Positions 693-7,568 of a stretch of 64,000 bases of DNA are shown here, piece after piece (within the stretch, counting starts at the first letter, position 1; each line of letters begins with the position of its first letter). Position numbers and translations under genes: made by a program. The stretch spans positions 62,001-126,000 of the forward strand of contig JACFNZ010000001.1 of NCBI GenBank assembly GCA_019454605.1, read 5' to 3'. Under the pieces are notes generated by a model, which was not told the DNA's origin, searched no databases, and saw only the letters and a list, made by a program, of their open reading frames with translations. This DNA comes from Candidatus Altimarinota bacterium. GTDB lineage: Bacteria; Patescibacteriota; Gracilibacteria; BD1-5; UBA6164.

Positions 693-3623
693 ATGAATAA
701 AAATATAGGGGAAAAATTTAGTATAGAACAAAGAAATAATCCTGATTTTAATAATTCTATAGATAGTTTTACTACAGAAAATAAATCAAAAGCATTAGTT
801 ATTATAAATGAAAATTTTTGACAAAAAATTGATGAGATTAAAAAAGAATTTTTTTTATGAGTAGATATTAAGGAAAAATATAAATCTAATTTTCAAAATC
901 TAGATTTTTTAGAAAATTTAAATTCTTATATTTGAAATAGTTTTTGAAAAATAGCAGAAAATAATAATTTAAATTCTTATAATGAAATATATTTTTTCTT
1001 ATATTTTTTTTCAATAAAAGAAAAATTAGATATTTATGATAGTTGAGATATTTATGATGAGAAAAAACTTTTTAGCCTTTTAAATAATTATTTTGATAAA
1101 ATAGTAAATAGTTCTGATTTAAACAATAGAGAATCAATTTTAAATTTAAATTCCTATTTAAAATTATGTTGATTATGTAATATAATTTGTTTATTAAATC
1201 AAAATAACTCTTTAAAAAAAGATTTTATATACTTAATTATTGATTTTATAACAGTAAAAATTAATTCAATATTACCTTTATTAGAAGAAAAGTTAGATGA
1301 TAAAAATATTATAAATTGATTTAAATATATACTTTGATTATTTGAATTAAACTACAGTTATATAACTTATGTCAATATAGATAAAAAGGATCAATTAGAT
1401 ATCTTTTTAGAAGAAGAAAAAAATATCTTATTAAATACAATAGCTTGATATAATAATTGTAAATCTTCTGATTTTTGATGAAATTTAGAAAAAAAACAAA
1501 TTATAGATAGAGTTTTTATCATAAATATAACATATATAATAAGTTTGTTAGATTTAAAACTTATTAAAATAAACCTAACAAAACAAGATTATGAAAATAA
1601 TACTAAATTTATTGAAATTATAAATTTATTTAAAAATGAACTAATTAATTTATGATTAAATATAAATTTAGATAAAAATCTAGCAGATATATGTAATTTT
1701 ATATTTATAAAAAACTATAAATGATTTAATAAATTAAACATATTAACTACTTTTGAAAAAAAAATTGATATTAATGATTTTTTATCTCAATTTTCTTTTT
1801 TAAATTTTACAAATAAAGTCGATGATTTAGAGCTTATTCATCATATACTATTATTTAATACTAATATAAATAATGAGAATATATATAATATATTATATAT
1901 ATTAGTAAATCAAAATGCATCAACAAATTTAAACTATGAAGTAATACGTTTAAGAATATTAAATATAATTTTAACTAGACTAGCTCCTTTAAAAGATGAA
2001 AAGTTAAAATACTTATTAAATAAAACTTTAAATTATGTAGATAAAAATAAGGTTTTTTCTCATCTACTTTATACATATTCACTAATGTATGCTTCATTAT
2101 CTTATTGTTATTCTTTTTTTGATGATGAAGAAAGTCAAAATAAAACACTAACAACTTTTGCGAAATTTAAACAAATAAATAATTGAGACTTTATTTTTGA
2201 TAAATACGGTATAAATACAAAATTATTTTTTAGTAATATGTGATTTAAAAAATCATTAAAATATGGAATAATAGATAAAGTTTGTTATGAAAATAGACAT
2301 AATAGTAAAAAAAGTTGCCCTAAATGCGCTGATTTTAATTTTGAAAATATTGTTAAAATATGAAGATGATATTTAGAGGAGTATGCTATATTGTATAGAA
2401 ATATTAAAACATCAAAAATAATTAATGATTTAGATAGTTTTTTAATTAATAATAAAGATAGTTCATGATCTATTGATACTTTAAAAATACATCTTGAAAA
2501 AATTTTTAAAACTCTTTTTCATTGAATAGTTTCTATAGATTTATTTGATGATTCTTTAAGTAAAAATAATAAAATTTTAGATAAATATAATGATTATAAA
2601 GATATTGATTTAATAAATTGATATATATTAAGATTAATTTACCCTATATCATTTAAAACTGATTTTGATTGATTATATTATAATTACTCAGAAAAATCTA
2701 TATTAGAATTTAGTGACAATATTAATAAAGAAAATTGATCTATAATAAATGAAATTCTAATAAGATTAAAAAATTTTTTAGAAAGTTTTAATGAAAAAAA
2801 TAAAATAACATTATCTTTAGTTTCAAATTTTGAAAAAGCACTAGAAGATGACAATATTTCTTTAATGTTCCAATGAATTCATAATTCATATTGAGATATA
2901 TCAAAATACGAGGTATTATCTAGAATAAATATTTCACAAAACGATTTAAGTAAATATAATATAAGAGATTATATAGATGCTATTATTAAATTAAAAAGGG
3001 GGGATTTACTAAAAAAATTAATAAAAAATAATATAAAACAATCAATTGATATAATTAATAAATACTCTCACATAAATCTTTCTATAAATATAGAATATAA
3101 TGATATAATAAATGAAGATTTAATATACTATTTAGAAGACCTTGCAAAAAATAATATAAATATAGAAAATATAACTTTTGAATTAATTGAATGAAAATGG
3201 GATGATAATAATATTGTAATAAAAAATTTAAAAAGATTAAAACATTCTTGATATAAAATAGCTATGGATGATTTTGGTAGTTGAGAATCAAGTATAAATA
3301 GGTTATTAAAATTATTTGAGGAATGAATTGTTGATTATGTTAAAATAGATTGAGAAATTATTAAAAGACTAAGTTTTGAAGAAAATAATAATAATAAACA
3401 ATCTTTATTATCAATATTTAAAAAAGATAATAAAAAAAGTGATTGAGATATAATAGCTATTATAAAAATGATTGTAGCTATTTGTAAAAATCATAATGTT
3501 AAAATTATTGCTGAATTTGTAGAAAATAAATTTTTATTTGATTACTTATCAAAATTATGAGTAGACTTATTTCAATGATATTATCTTAGCAAACCATTGC
3601 CAGAAAATGAAATATTAAAATAA
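693..3623 (+). CDS. EAL-domain protein, probable c-di-GMP phosphodiesterase
   Basis: 976 residues. The last ~270 residues (about 705-975) form an EAL domain, the family that hydrolyses cyclic di-GMP to pGpG. Catalytic and metal-binding positions look intact: the signature Glu in YEVLSR (~740), Asn in LSINIE, Glu in FELIEG, the Asp pair in MDDFGSG (~859), Lys in VKIDG (~885), Glu in AEFVEN and Gln in FQGYYLSKP. No GGDEF domain is seen. The first ~700 residues are helical, very rich in Asn, Ile and Leu, and not recognised; a CPKC pair lies at 542-545. Many glycines are TGA. The 28-base gap to frr suggests cotranscription. No membrane segment is evident, so it is probably cytoplasmic. Confidence 0.9.
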
Positions 3624-3655: not shown

Positions 3656-3735
3656 ATATTTACTTTAATATTTAATTGTAGATACATGGCAGGATGATAC
3701 TAAAATAATTTTATAAAACAATTCATTTTTTTAGG

Positions 3736-3771
3736 GTTTAAACAAAAAAGTTTGTTTAAATCTTTTTTTTT
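3736..3771 (+). terminator. Rho-independent terminator
   Basis: An 11-bp stem, GTTTAAACAAA with TTTGTTTAAAT, has a four-base loop and is followed by a run of ten T. It ends the EAL transcript and/or the putative short RNA from 3627, and insulates the PAS gene downstream. Confidence 0.85.
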
Positions 3772-3823
3772 GCTTTTTTAAAAATTTTATATATACAATA
3801 AGTGTTTTTTATAAGTTAGTTTT

Positions 3824-3831
3824 AAAAAGGA
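3824..3831 (+). promoter_or_regulatory. Strong Shine-Dalgarno of the foreign PAS gene
   Basis: AAAAAGGAG lies 6-7 bases before the ATG at 3838. Most neighbouring native genes have no recognisable Shine-Dalgarno (rpsU is an exception), so this site adds to the foreign character of the PAS/MCP pair. Confidence 0.6.
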
Positions 3832-3837
3832 GTTTTT

Positions 3838-4272
3838 ATGAAAAACAATGGCCCACTTACTGGAAGAGAAAAAGTATTTGATGAAAATAAAATACTTGTT
3901 TCAATTACAGATTTAAAAGGAAGACTTATTTATGTAAATGAGGATTTCATAGATATTTCTGGTTTTTCAAAGGATGAATTAATAGGGAAAGCTCATAATA
4001 TAGTTCGTTCTCCTGATATTCCATCTGAAATTTTTCAAAATTTATGGGATTTTCTAAAAAATGAAAGAAATTGGATTGGTATAATTAAAAATAGATGCAA
4101 AAATGGAGATCATTATTGGGTTGAAGCTTTTGTTAGTCCTATGTATAAAAATAATGTTTGTATTGGTTTTCAATCTGTTAGAGTAAAACCTAAAGAGGAA
4201 GACCTAAAAAGAACATTAAAAATTTATGACAGACTAAAAAATGGGAAAAAAAACTCTCTATCCATTTTTTAA
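3838..4272 (+). CDS. PAS sensory domain protein, N-terminal half of an Aer-like receptor
   Basis: 144 residues forming one PAS domain: [22 protein letters not shown], then [10 protein letters not shown] and [19 protein letters not shown]. This is the Aer-type (redox/oxygen) PAS common in Campylobacterota chemoreceptors. All glycines are GGN and Trp is TGG; there is no in-frame TGA, unlike native genes here. The reading frame overlaps the MCP gene by 32 bases at a run of eight A (4244-4251). In related receptors the PAS domain and signalling domain are one polypeptide, so this looks like the front half of a frameshifted gene. Confidence 0.85.
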
Positions 4273-5347
4273 CCCTAAAATGTGGAGTATTAATACTAAA
4301 TTTTTTAGTATTAATTTAATACTTTTTTTATTTTTATTTTATATAAAAGGATTTATTGATAATACTTTTAATAACAATCTTACAAGTAACTTTATTTTTG
4401 GAATATTTTTTTTTAGTATTTTGTTTGTAGTATCACATTTTTTTTGTAAAAAAGTGGTTTTATTAACAAAAAAATCTAAAGAATATGTTAACAACCCTAT
4501 TTTGACACAAATGTTTATGGGAGGATGTGATGAGATAGATCAAATTAATTTTGAAAATAGATTTATAAAAGCACGTAATCGAACTGCAATAGGACGATTA
4601 AATGAGCTTTTTTCTCAAATGCACCAGGATATTGAGAAAGGTAGCAATGAAGTATTAAAAATTGAAAAAAATGTTTCTATCTTAGAAACTAATACTCAAG
4701 AAGTATTGCATTCTGCTCAAAATCAACAATCTAGTGTGGTTTCTACTACAATAAGTGTTGAACAAGCCAAAAAAGCAATAGACTCTATTTTACAACAAAT
4801 TACTATATTAGTAAGTGATGTAAATAAAGCTTGTGAGGAAATTTCAAATGTAAAAGCTTTTTCTGACAATATTTCATCAATAATTTCTCAAATTAAGGAG
4901 ATATCTGACCAAACAAACTTACTTTCTATAAATGCAGCAATTGAAGCAGCTAGAGCTGGTGAATCTGGAAAAGGATTCAATGTTGTTGCTACAGAAGTAA
5001 GAGGACTTGCAAGAAAAACTAAAGATTCTTCAGCACAAATAGAATCAATAGTTAAAAAATTGCAATTAGGAATAAATCTTGCTTTTGAAAAAATGCATCA
5101 TACTTCTTCAAAAACAAGTGAGGTAAATAAACAATCTAGTGAAATACAATTCTCTATTGAAAATATAAAAACAAATATAAGTCAAATTAGTGACTTAGCA
5201 AACTATGTTAGAAAAACTATTGAAACTCAATCAGTTATGATAGTGGATTTAGTTTCAAATGTAACTAACATATCTCAAACACAAACCCAAAATCTAGATG
5301 TTGCAATATCCATCTATGAAGAGGGCAAAAGTTTAGAAAAATCTTGA
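4241..5347 (+). CDS. Methyl-accepting chemotaxis protein, signalling half of an Aer-like receptor
   Basis: 368 residues ending at TGA. Two hydrophobic segments (about 20-40 and 50-72) are followed by a coiled-coil signalling domain. The highly conserved tip, [20 protein letters not shown] and then [13 protein letters not shown] (about 221-258), would contact CheA/CheW. There is no internal TGA. Read strictly in code 25 the frame runs 16 residues on through the terminator hairpin to TAA at 5393-5395; the TGA is more plausibly the donor's stop. The ATG at 4241 lies inside the PAS gene. No che genes or flagellar genes are in this window, so whether it signals is unknown. Confidence 0.85.
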
Positions 5348-5361
5348 TTCTCTAAACTAAA

Positions 5362-5393
5362 AAATCTAAAGGCAAAGCCTTTAGATTTTTTTT
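5362..5393 (+). terminator. Rho-independent terminator of the PAS/MCP unit
   Basis: A perfect 12-bp stem, AAATCTAAAGGC with GCCTTTAGATTT, has a three-base loop and a T-run, and lies 14 bases after the TGA that ends the MCP gene. Its position argues that this TGA was the functional stop. Confidence 0.9.
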
Positions 5394-5435
5394 AATTTTA
5401 TTATTTTGATTTTATATAAATATATCTTATAATAA

Positions 5436-5828
5436 ATTGTAATTTTACAATATATAAAAGTACCTGATAATAATCAAACTTTTAGTAAAATAGACTGGTG
5501 AAAACCAAATAGTGATTTTACTATTACTTCTGTAGCAAAAATAACTTGAGTTGTTGATGATTGAACAGGTTGTGAGTTTTGATATATAAGTACATGAATT
5601 TATAATACTCCTACGATTTTTTCATCTTATAGATATAATTTATCAAGTAATGACTTTAGATTTATGGGTTGAGATTCAAAACAGAGTGTAGTTATGTGAG
5701 ATAATTGGCTTGAAGATAAATTTGAGTATCTAACATTTTCTAAATCATGAAATTTACTTACTTTTTATATTAATGGTAATAAAAGTTTAGATATTTCATT
5801 ATTAGAACAAAAATATTTATGAAAATAG
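5436..5828 (+). pseudogene. Headless code-25 coding remnant, C-terminal part of a surface-type protein
   Basis: An open frame without an ATG, about 130 codons with seven or more TGA glycines, ends at TAG (5826-5828). It reads KIDWGKPNSDFTITSVAK and later FEYLTFSKSGNLLTFYING, a beta-rich composition resembling the C-terminal part of an extracellular or pilin-like protein. A TAA directly upstream closes the frame. It sits right after the foreign PAS/MCP island, so it may be what is left of a native gene truncated when the island arrived. The family is not recognised. Confidence 0.5.
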
Positions 5829-5944
5829 AATATAAAGATATTTTTGATAAAGATTTATCAAAAATAAGAGATAATATTTTAATAAAAAAAATTTTTGAAA
5901 ATATTGGTATTATAAAAAAATCTTATGAAATTATATGATTTTAA
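5819..5944 (+). CDS. 41-residue ORF resembling the N-terminus of a RelE-type toxin
   Basis: MKIEYKDIFDKDLSKIRDNI and so on. The pattern of a short strand followed by F-x-KDL-x-KI resembles the first 40 residues of RelE/ParE-family toxins (about 90 residues), so it would be truncated and inactive. It overlaps the preceding remnant by 10 bases. One TGA glycine. It may equally be a chance ORF. Confidence 0.3.
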
Positions 5945-6107
5945 GTATATTGCCCCTGGAGTTTTACTTATTTAACTAAAAAATAATAATTTATGTATTT
6001 ATAGTTGATTATATAACTTCGGGATTTTTATTTGTTTAATCTTTTTTTTGCATTGATTTTTTTTTAAATTTAACTATATTAAAAATAGTTAATAATTTAT
6101 AAAATAC

Positions 6108-7568
6108 ATGAAAACATACTATATAAAAACATTTTGATGTGAGATGAATCATGCAGATTCAGAAAAGGTAAATATGATTTTATTACAATCTTGATTTAAA
6201 AAAGTTTGAAATTATAAAGATGCTGATTTGATTATTTTAAATACTTGTAGTGTAAGACAAAAATGAGAAGATAGAGTTTTTTGATTACTTCATGAAGTTG
6301 AAAAAATAAATAAAATAAGACTAAAAGAGTGAAAAAAAGAAATTCTAACCTGACTTACTTGATGTATGGTAAGAAAAACTTGATTAAATAAAAAACATAT
6401 CTTATGAGAGTTAAATAAAAAAAAGGCTCAAAATATAACTTATTTAGAAAATGAATCTTGAATTTTCAACTTTGATGATAATTTATTTTCAAGATTACCA
6501 AACCTAGATTTTACTTTAAGAATTGAAGAAATAAAATATCTTAATTTTATACTAACTCATTTATATAAAGAGAGAATTTGAAGTGATGATAAATTTGATG
6601 ATTATTTAAAACAAGTTCAATTAAGAGAAAATAAATATTCAGCTACTGTAATAATTCAAAAATGATGTGATAATTTTTGTACTTTTTGTATTGTTCCATA
6701 CACAAGATGAAGAGAAGTTTCAAGAAGTATTGAAGAAATAATTGAAGAAATTAAAGAACTTGCAAAAAATTGAACTAAAGAAATAACTTTAGTTGGGCAA
6801 AATGTAAACTCATTTTGAAAACAAAAAAATCTAAAACTTTGGGATGAAGAAAAATCAAAATGGAATGATTGAGTTTGAAAATCACCTTTTAGAGAATTAC
6901 TTGAAGAAATAAATAAAATTCCTTGAATAGATAGAGTAAGATTTACCTCATCAAACCCTCATGATATGACTCAAGATATACTTGATGCTCATTTTGATTT
7001 AGATAATACTTGTAATTATTTGCATTTAGCTTTGCAAAGCTGAAATGATAGAATGTTAAAAAAAATGAATAGAAAACATAGTTATAAAGATTTTAAAGAT
7101 ATGGTTTTATATTTAAGAGAAAAAGATCCTTTTTTTACAATTTCAACTGATATAATTGTTTGATATAGTTCAGAAACTGAAAGTGATTTTTTAGATACTA
7201 TAAATGCTATTAAAGAGCTTGAAATTGATTTTGTATATATTGCAAGATATTCAGTTAGACTTTGAACAATTGCATCAAAAGCTTTTCCTGATGATGTTTC
7301 TGATGAAATAAAAGCAGATAGATGGCATAGATTAAATGAAGTTTTAGAAGAAAATGTTAAAAAAAGATCAAAAAAAATGATTTGAAGAATTGAAAAAATA
7401 CTTGTTTCTTGAGTAAAAGATTGATATTTATTTTGAAGAACAAGAAATTTTAAAGAAGTATTTTTTGACATAGTTTCTTGAATAAAAGAATGAGATATTG
7501 TCGATGTAGAAATAACAGAAATTGATAATTGGGTATTAAAAGGAAAGATTTTAGAACAAAAAAAATAA
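6108..7568 (+). CDS. miaB: tRNA-2-methylthio-N6-dimethylallyladenosine synthase (MiaB family)
   Basis: 486 residues. A radical-SAM methylthiotransferase acting on A37 of tRNAs reading U-starting codons. The order is an N-terminal UPF0004 domain with cluster cysteines C11, C47 and C86; a radical-SAM CxxxCxxC at C187, C191, C194 (KGCDNFCTFCIVPYTRGRE); and a C-terminal TRAM-like segment. Glycines before cysteines (FGC, TGC, KGC) are TGA. An insertion around residues 120-175 is longer than usual. Other methylthiotransferases (MtaB, RimO) fit less well because of the VPYTRGRE motif and overall layout. Its 3' end overlaps a terminator. Confidence 0.93.

Follow-up and report, generated by a model that had tools for sequence, protein, structure and literature searches.

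An aer-type chemoreceptor gene, probably captured from a standard-code bacterium, in a Gracilibacteria genome that reads TGA as glycine

Results

Gene content between the EAL and miaB genes

Our analysis concerns a window of 64,000 nucleotides, corresponding to bases 62001-126000 of the 302,669-base contig C6 in a Candidatus Altimarinota genome (G000; 1.0 Mb, 99% complete). In 385 kb sampled from this genome and comprising 323 ORFs, TGA accounts for 5,576 of the 6,631 glycine codons (84%), and this heavy in-frame use of TGA in native genes fits NCBI code 25, the code of Gracilibacteria and Absconditabacteria. Near its left end the window holds an EAL-domain gene and a miaB-type gene, both native-coded, which adjoin each other in sister genomes and are here separated by additional DNA. 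The features of the region, in window positions, are the following.

693-3623, plus strand: left flank, native code-25 gene of 976 aa with an EAL domain (PF00563, E 2.7e-37); 32 TGA, 5 GGN
3734-3773, plus strand: hairpin resembling a terminator, 3' of the EAL gene (RNA fold -11.3 kcal/mol, z -3.4)
3774-6030, no strand: inserted stretch with approximate ends; G412 and both G535 copies lack it at the EAL-miaB junction
3827-3832, plus strand: Shine-Dalgarno-like AAGGAG, recognised from the sequence
3838-4272, plus strand: first part of aer, ORF of 144 aa with a PAS domain (PAS_3, E 9.1e-15), ending at TAA
4241-5347, plus strand: second part of aer, ORF of 368 aa with a membrane segment and an MCP signalling domain (PF00015, E 2.8e-33), running to the TGA at 5345-5347
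4243-4253, plus strand: G3A8 tract with one base more than the G535 homologue, which breaks the reading frame
5359-5391, plus strand: intrinsic terminator directly 3' of the aer TGA, with a 15-bp stem and a T run (-16.6 kcal/mol, z -4.7)
5457-5825, plus strand: native-coded 3' gene fragment of 123 aa with 9 TGA and no start (PF13385, E 0.0019, below cut-off)
5819-5944, plus strand: short ORF of 41 aa
6031-6051, plus strand: right near-direct repeat TTTGTTTAATCTTTTTTTTGC, before miaB
6108-7568, plus strand: right flank, native code-25 miaB-type gene of 486 aa; 28 TGA, 2 GGN

One aer-type gene divided by a frameshift

A sequence-only reading of this DNA had described the two central ORFs as an Aer-like PAS/chemoreceptor pair. 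The likeness to Aer was borne out, whereas the supposed pair proved to be a single frameshifted gene. When one A is deleted from the G3A8 tract, the ORFs fuse into a reading of 502 codons that matches plasmid-borne, single-chain Aer-like receptors from end to end (residues 1-501). Such full-length matches to single-chain proteins show one ancestral ORF rather than separate PAS and MCP proteins, the first ORF stopping at its TAA because of the frame change. In a genome of the same genus (G535) the homologue is an intact single chain of 510 codons, and the site of the frameshift reads GGGAAGAAATCG there as opposed to GGGAAAAAAAACTC in the window. The order PAS, membrane segment, MCP is thus contained in one chain in G535 and is preserved in the window, split by a single base.

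A receptor pair of the kind formed by CetA and CetB, the bipartite energy-taxis system of Campylobacter jejuni (PMC2628428), was also considered. The window resembles that system in having a PAS reading frame beside an MCP reading frame, but its split is a one-base frameshift within one gene whose nearest homologue is a single chain. With both the plasmid Aers and the G535 copy matching as one chain, a CetA/CetB-type pair is ruled out at this locus.

The best PDB match of the PAS part is E. coli Aer (8dik, E 1.8e-30). In that protein FAD is contacted by His53, Asn85, Arg57, Trp70 and Arg115 (PMC9668731), and all five residues are kept in the window and G535 copies in an ungapped alignment to E. 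coli Aer (1-137); as far as can be predicted from sequence, the PAS pocket of both copies has the residues for FAD binding. The window gene shares this set of residues and the domain order with E. coli Aer and with the Aer-like receptors of gammaproteobacterial plasmids and phages. It is nevertheless only about 32% identical to them overall, and its PAS part is 48-50% identical to the plasmid Aers and 36% to E. coli Aer. Pfam detects HAMP (PF00672) in E. coli Aer, but neither in the window gene nor in its G535 counterpart nor in a Vibrio plasmid Aer; a diverged HAMP-like stretch in the window gene is possible. Since this match is missing, we use "Aer-type" as the safe name and do not speak of an E. 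coli-type Aer, from which the window gene differs further in its broken frame and in the lack of CheA and CheW matches in its genome (see below).

A TGA-free island in a code-25 genome

Both ORFs (3838-4272 and 4241-5347) are open in the standard code. It had been claimed from the letters alone that some 500 codons contain no in-frame TGA but the last, and the 502 codons between 3838 and 5347 indeed contain TGA solely as the terminal codon. The further claims that every glycine is GGN and that a Shine-Dalgarno sequence precedes the first ORF are likewise correct: the joined reading has 21 GGN among 21 glycine codons (13 GGA, 5 GGT, 1 GGG and 2 GGC), and AAGGAG stands upstream of the ATG at 3838. 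If TGA encoded glycine here as often as in the surrounding window (0.83), the probability of finding no TGA in 21 glycines would be about 1e-16, and even at the lowest rate observed among the strongly expressed genes examined it is about 1e-5. By our arithmetic, 0 of 21 means that, at the 95% level, fewer than about 13% of the glycines have been converted, as against 84% at equilibrium. The gene also retains a foreign stop in addition to lacking internal TGA, for its TGA stands before an intrinsic terminator, which probably came along with it; read in code 25, the second ORF would continue for 16 residues past this TGA to the TAA at 5393-5395.

Glycine codons aside, codon usage is not conspicuously foreign, as GC3 of the window gene (0.12) is barely above that of native genes (0.09, s.d. 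0.03). Of the sampled ORFs, 268 have eight or more glycine codons, and three of these are free of internal TGA, namely both parts of aer and one ORF on contig C5 (L100; 11056-11580, minus strand; 12 GGN, no TGA). The latter encodes a glucosaminidase-domain protein (PF01832, E 9.8e-17), adjoins rlmN and lies between native-coded genes; it may represent a second foreign standard-code gene or island.

Missing TGA codons could in principle reflect strong expression of a native gene, and such avoidance does exist in the family: the EF-Ts, S2 and S1 genes of another member (G376, L062 13699-16938) are TGA-free, suggesting that some family members avoid TGA as a glycine codon in an expression-linked manner. 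In the present genome, however, strongly expressed genes still use TGA for 40-65% of their glycines (24 of 39 codons in EF-Tu, 28 of 43 in AtpD, 6 of 14 in S2 and 6 of 15 in L4), and the sister genomes have no such gene at this site. With 323 ORFs tested, we regard strong expression as ruled out as the cause in this genome, and a native gene shaped in this way as scarcely credible.

Empty sites in sister genomes

The gap between the EAL gene and miaB measures 2,485 bp in the window versus 202, 223 and 211 bp in the sister copies (G412 and, twice, G535), so that aer is absent from the orthologous site in close relatives. The G535 assembly seems to hold two strains because two miaB genes of this kind are present in it; the sister-species copies are 72-73% identical to the miaB-type gene of the window. 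Directly 5' of miaB, the sister gaps retain a hairpin terminator. In the window, a similar hairpin follows the EAL gene; its 3' half (TTTGTTTAAATCTTTTTTTTTGC, 3751-3773) forms the left member of a near-direct repeat pair bordering the insert, and the right member stands before miaB. The native-coded fragment behind aer is weakly like a concanavalin-A/laminin-G (lectin-like) domain and has no copy or homologue elsewhere in the genus, and no phage or mobile-element gene was recognised within the insert.

We also weighed an assembly chimera or contamination. The assemblies are MAG-like, their junctions are known from the assembly alone rather than from reads, and bins in this set can include a contig that does not belong to them, as illustrated by contig 26 of G532, which shows only a standard-code reading and looks foreign. 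Against such an artefact, the window lies on one 302-kb contig, its native-coded flanks are neighbours in sister genomes, a native-coded fragment with nine TGA sits within the insert itself, and a second assembly independently shows a homologue that is precisely inserted. Taken together, the native coding of the flanks, the empty sites with their conserved EAL-miaB order and the fragment inside the insert make a chimera very unlikely. The G532 contig (C26, L078) is short, carries an MCP end, a PAS protein and a transporter-like gene, all in the standard code, and is probably a bin contaminant.

A second aer insertion in the genus

According to the sequence-only reading, closest homologues in other code-25 genomes would refute transfer. 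Taken literally this is the situation observed, because the closest homologue among the sampled sequences is the aer of G535, with 72% identity to the window copy in the PAS part and 56% in the MCP part; that copy is, however, itself a TGA-free foreign insert located elsewhere. It adjoins tex, on a different contig from the EAL-miaB locus. The tex proteins of G412 and G535 are 90% identical, and the flanks of aer that are 1.7 kb apart in G535 correspond to points only 4 bp apart in G412, a clean empty site and a second case of absence from the orthologous position in a close relative. None of the 34 glycines of this copy is encoded by TGA, the ORF ends in TGA, and its GC3 (0.35 versus 0.18 for native genes) is foreign. 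As the G535 copy is TGA-free, compositionally foreign and at another site, its existence strengthens the case for transfer.

A comparison of glycine codons between the two genomes bears on when the copies diverged. Among 241 glycines shared by native orthologues, 74 are TGA in both, 139 are TGA/GGN, 7 are GGN/TGA and only 21 (9%) are GGN in both, while the aer copies have GGN in both at 19 of 19 shared glycines although 40% of their residues differ. This points to divergence of the aer copies under the standard code, and the simplest reading is that there were probably two acquisitions from related donors.

Since the nearest known homologue resides in a code-25 genome, a single ancestral acquisition followed by movement and by selection against TGA has to be weighed as well. 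Under vertical inheritance of this sort, the ancestor of the genus would have gained aer once, in line with the finding that the two copies are each other's nearest kin among the sampled sequences (100/100 support). The copies nonetheless occupy different positions, each empty in sister genomes; their shared glycines are uniformly GGN despite the extent of protein divergence; and their GC3 values, 0.12 and 0.35, are far apart. Moreover, receptors evidently tolerate TGA, as native-coded MCP-domain proteins are known with 47 TGA in G536 and 21 in G514, which renders a general selection against TGA on receptors unlikely. We therefore judge vertical inheritance improbable.

Donor and route

A tree of PAS domains, from a sample outside which Campylobacterota chromosomes lay, joins the two copies as sisters (100/100); a long stem leads to the pair, which groups with Aers of gammaproteobacterial plasmids (90/88). 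These are also the nearest outside relatives in that sample, at 48-50% identity in the PAS part. The sequence-only reading had likened the proteins to Campylobacterota receptors, and a sample of this scope speaks neither for nor against an origin there. A search of genome contigs, viral contigs, plasmids and phages yielded no relative closer than about 50%. Given the nearly native GC3 of the window gene, the donor must itself be AT-rich if the transfer was recent.

Codon statistics, the empty sites of sister genomes and the patchy distribution of the gene all support the claim that it arrived recently by horizontal transfer from a bacterium with the standard code. We consider it highly probable that an aer-type gene was captured from an AT-rich, standard-code bacterium, was inserted between the EAL gene and miaB, and is now most likely non-working and in an early stage of decay. 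In the proposed sequence of events, a single gene equipped with its own ribosome-binding site and terminator would have entered a lineage that reads TGA as glycine, landing at the terminator that separates the EAL gene from miaB. In the donor, the FAD-bearing PAS domain would have sensed how reduced or oxidised the respiratory chain was, and its signal would have travelled via the membrane segment to the MCP tip and on to CheW and CheA. Here, with the frame broken at G3A8 and neither CheA nor CheW detected, the captured gene would be in early decay.

The DNA was perhaps taken up from prey or host. Phages P1 and SJ46 carry Aer-like genes, and a phage is a conceivable, if unproven, route. Phages compatible with both codes have been proposed to infect Gracilibacteria (PMC10746230); like the present locus, these bring TGA-free genes into the surroundings of code-25 bacteria and may represent a vehicle.

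Signalling partners and fate of the captured gene

Aer passes its flavin redox signal to CheA and CheW (PMC9668731). Profile searches that gave matches in control genomes revealed no CheW in any tested genome of this family, the one studied here included; nor did they detect the dimerisation domain of CheA in any of ten genomes from the order, again including this one. The window receptor thus lacks a canonical partner, and the broken frame combined with the missing CheA and CheW makes it most likely that we are dealing with a decaying, non-functional captured gene and not with a working receptor.

The main rival to this conclusion is a gene kept functional by polymerase slippage on the A8 tract (or by a +1 ribosomal shift), which would yield some full-length Aer acting through an unrecognised partner, e.g. 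type IV pili. Slippage at homopolymers is reportedly able to compensate indels elsewhere. One indel aside, both frames are intact, leaving room for expression, native genes are rich in A8 tracts (203 A8 and 9 A9 in 313 kb of coding sequence), and three related code-25 genomes (G376, G453 and G351) have intact MCP ORFs while likewise lacking CheA. On the other hand, neither CheW nor the CheA dimerisation domain was found in the genome, the G535 homologue requires no slippage, and no ribosome-binding site is evident before the second ORF. We regard such a rescue as unlikely and retain decay as the preferred interpretation.

TGA-free chemotaxis genes elsewhere in the order

Only 16 of the order's 77 genomes encode MCP-domain proteins above the Pfam cut-off. 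In the code-25 genomes G453 (PAS and MCP), G376 (four MCPs) and G351 (two MCPs and CheW), nine more chemotaxis genes, flanked by native-coded genes, proved free of TGA. Adding both aer copies brings the total to eleven such genes, spread over five code-25 genomes, and every one of these genes has a GC3 above that of its host; empty sites are shown for the two aer copies only. For the G376 genes, foreign origin is less firmly indicated, since EF-Ts, S1 and S2 are also TGA-free in that genome.

In G351, a code-25 genome of a sister family, the TGA-free CheW and MCP genes have elevated GC3 (L108 10130-10627, L064 9855-11483, L065 8922-10643), and no CheA dimerisation domain was found. Other genomes of family f132 with TGA-free MCPs (G404, G457, G445, G347, G342, G506 and G511) were rejected as further cases as they are read by the standard code; only G351 uses code 25. 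G376 (1.4 Mb, code 25) has five MCP genes (L060, L062, L063, L076, L061) without CheA or CheW, and three adjacent ORFs on its contig 50 (619-4250) are nearly TGA-free. In G453 (L059 9837-11772) and G376 (L061 8694-10497), which belong to two genera, TGA-free PAS and MCP frames overlap as two genes with no evident frameshift and look more like a CetB/CetA-type pair than the window locus does.

None of the five code-25 genomes that carry the eleven TGA-free chemotaxis genes yielded a CheA domain. One might imagine that code-25 epibionts, themselves without cheA, repeatedly capture standard-code chemoreceptors (in G351 also cheW) and keep them TGA-free because their products act on or in a standard-code host, for example by interfering with its chemoreceptor arrays after transfer; we deem this highly improbable.

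Conclusions

Whether TGA recoding isolates such bacteria from gene exchange is debated (PMC8080830). For the code-25 predator Vampirococcus lugosii, 126 laterally acquired genes have been reported (PMC8080830), and like these the window aer is a foreign gene in a bacterium of the same class that reads TGA as glycine; unlike them, it combines a codon signature, empty sites and the original TGA stop, which allow the event to be read directly. That code-25 predators acquire genes laterally is already known, and the window provides an unusually clear case. In such genomes the altered code serves as a time stamp, since an incoming foreign gene contains no TGA for glycine and the TGA that originally ended it has lost its function as a stop. 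Within one genus, members of one gene family have been inserted at two different places, each of them empty in a relative, and this shows that inward transfer into these bacteria is not blocked.
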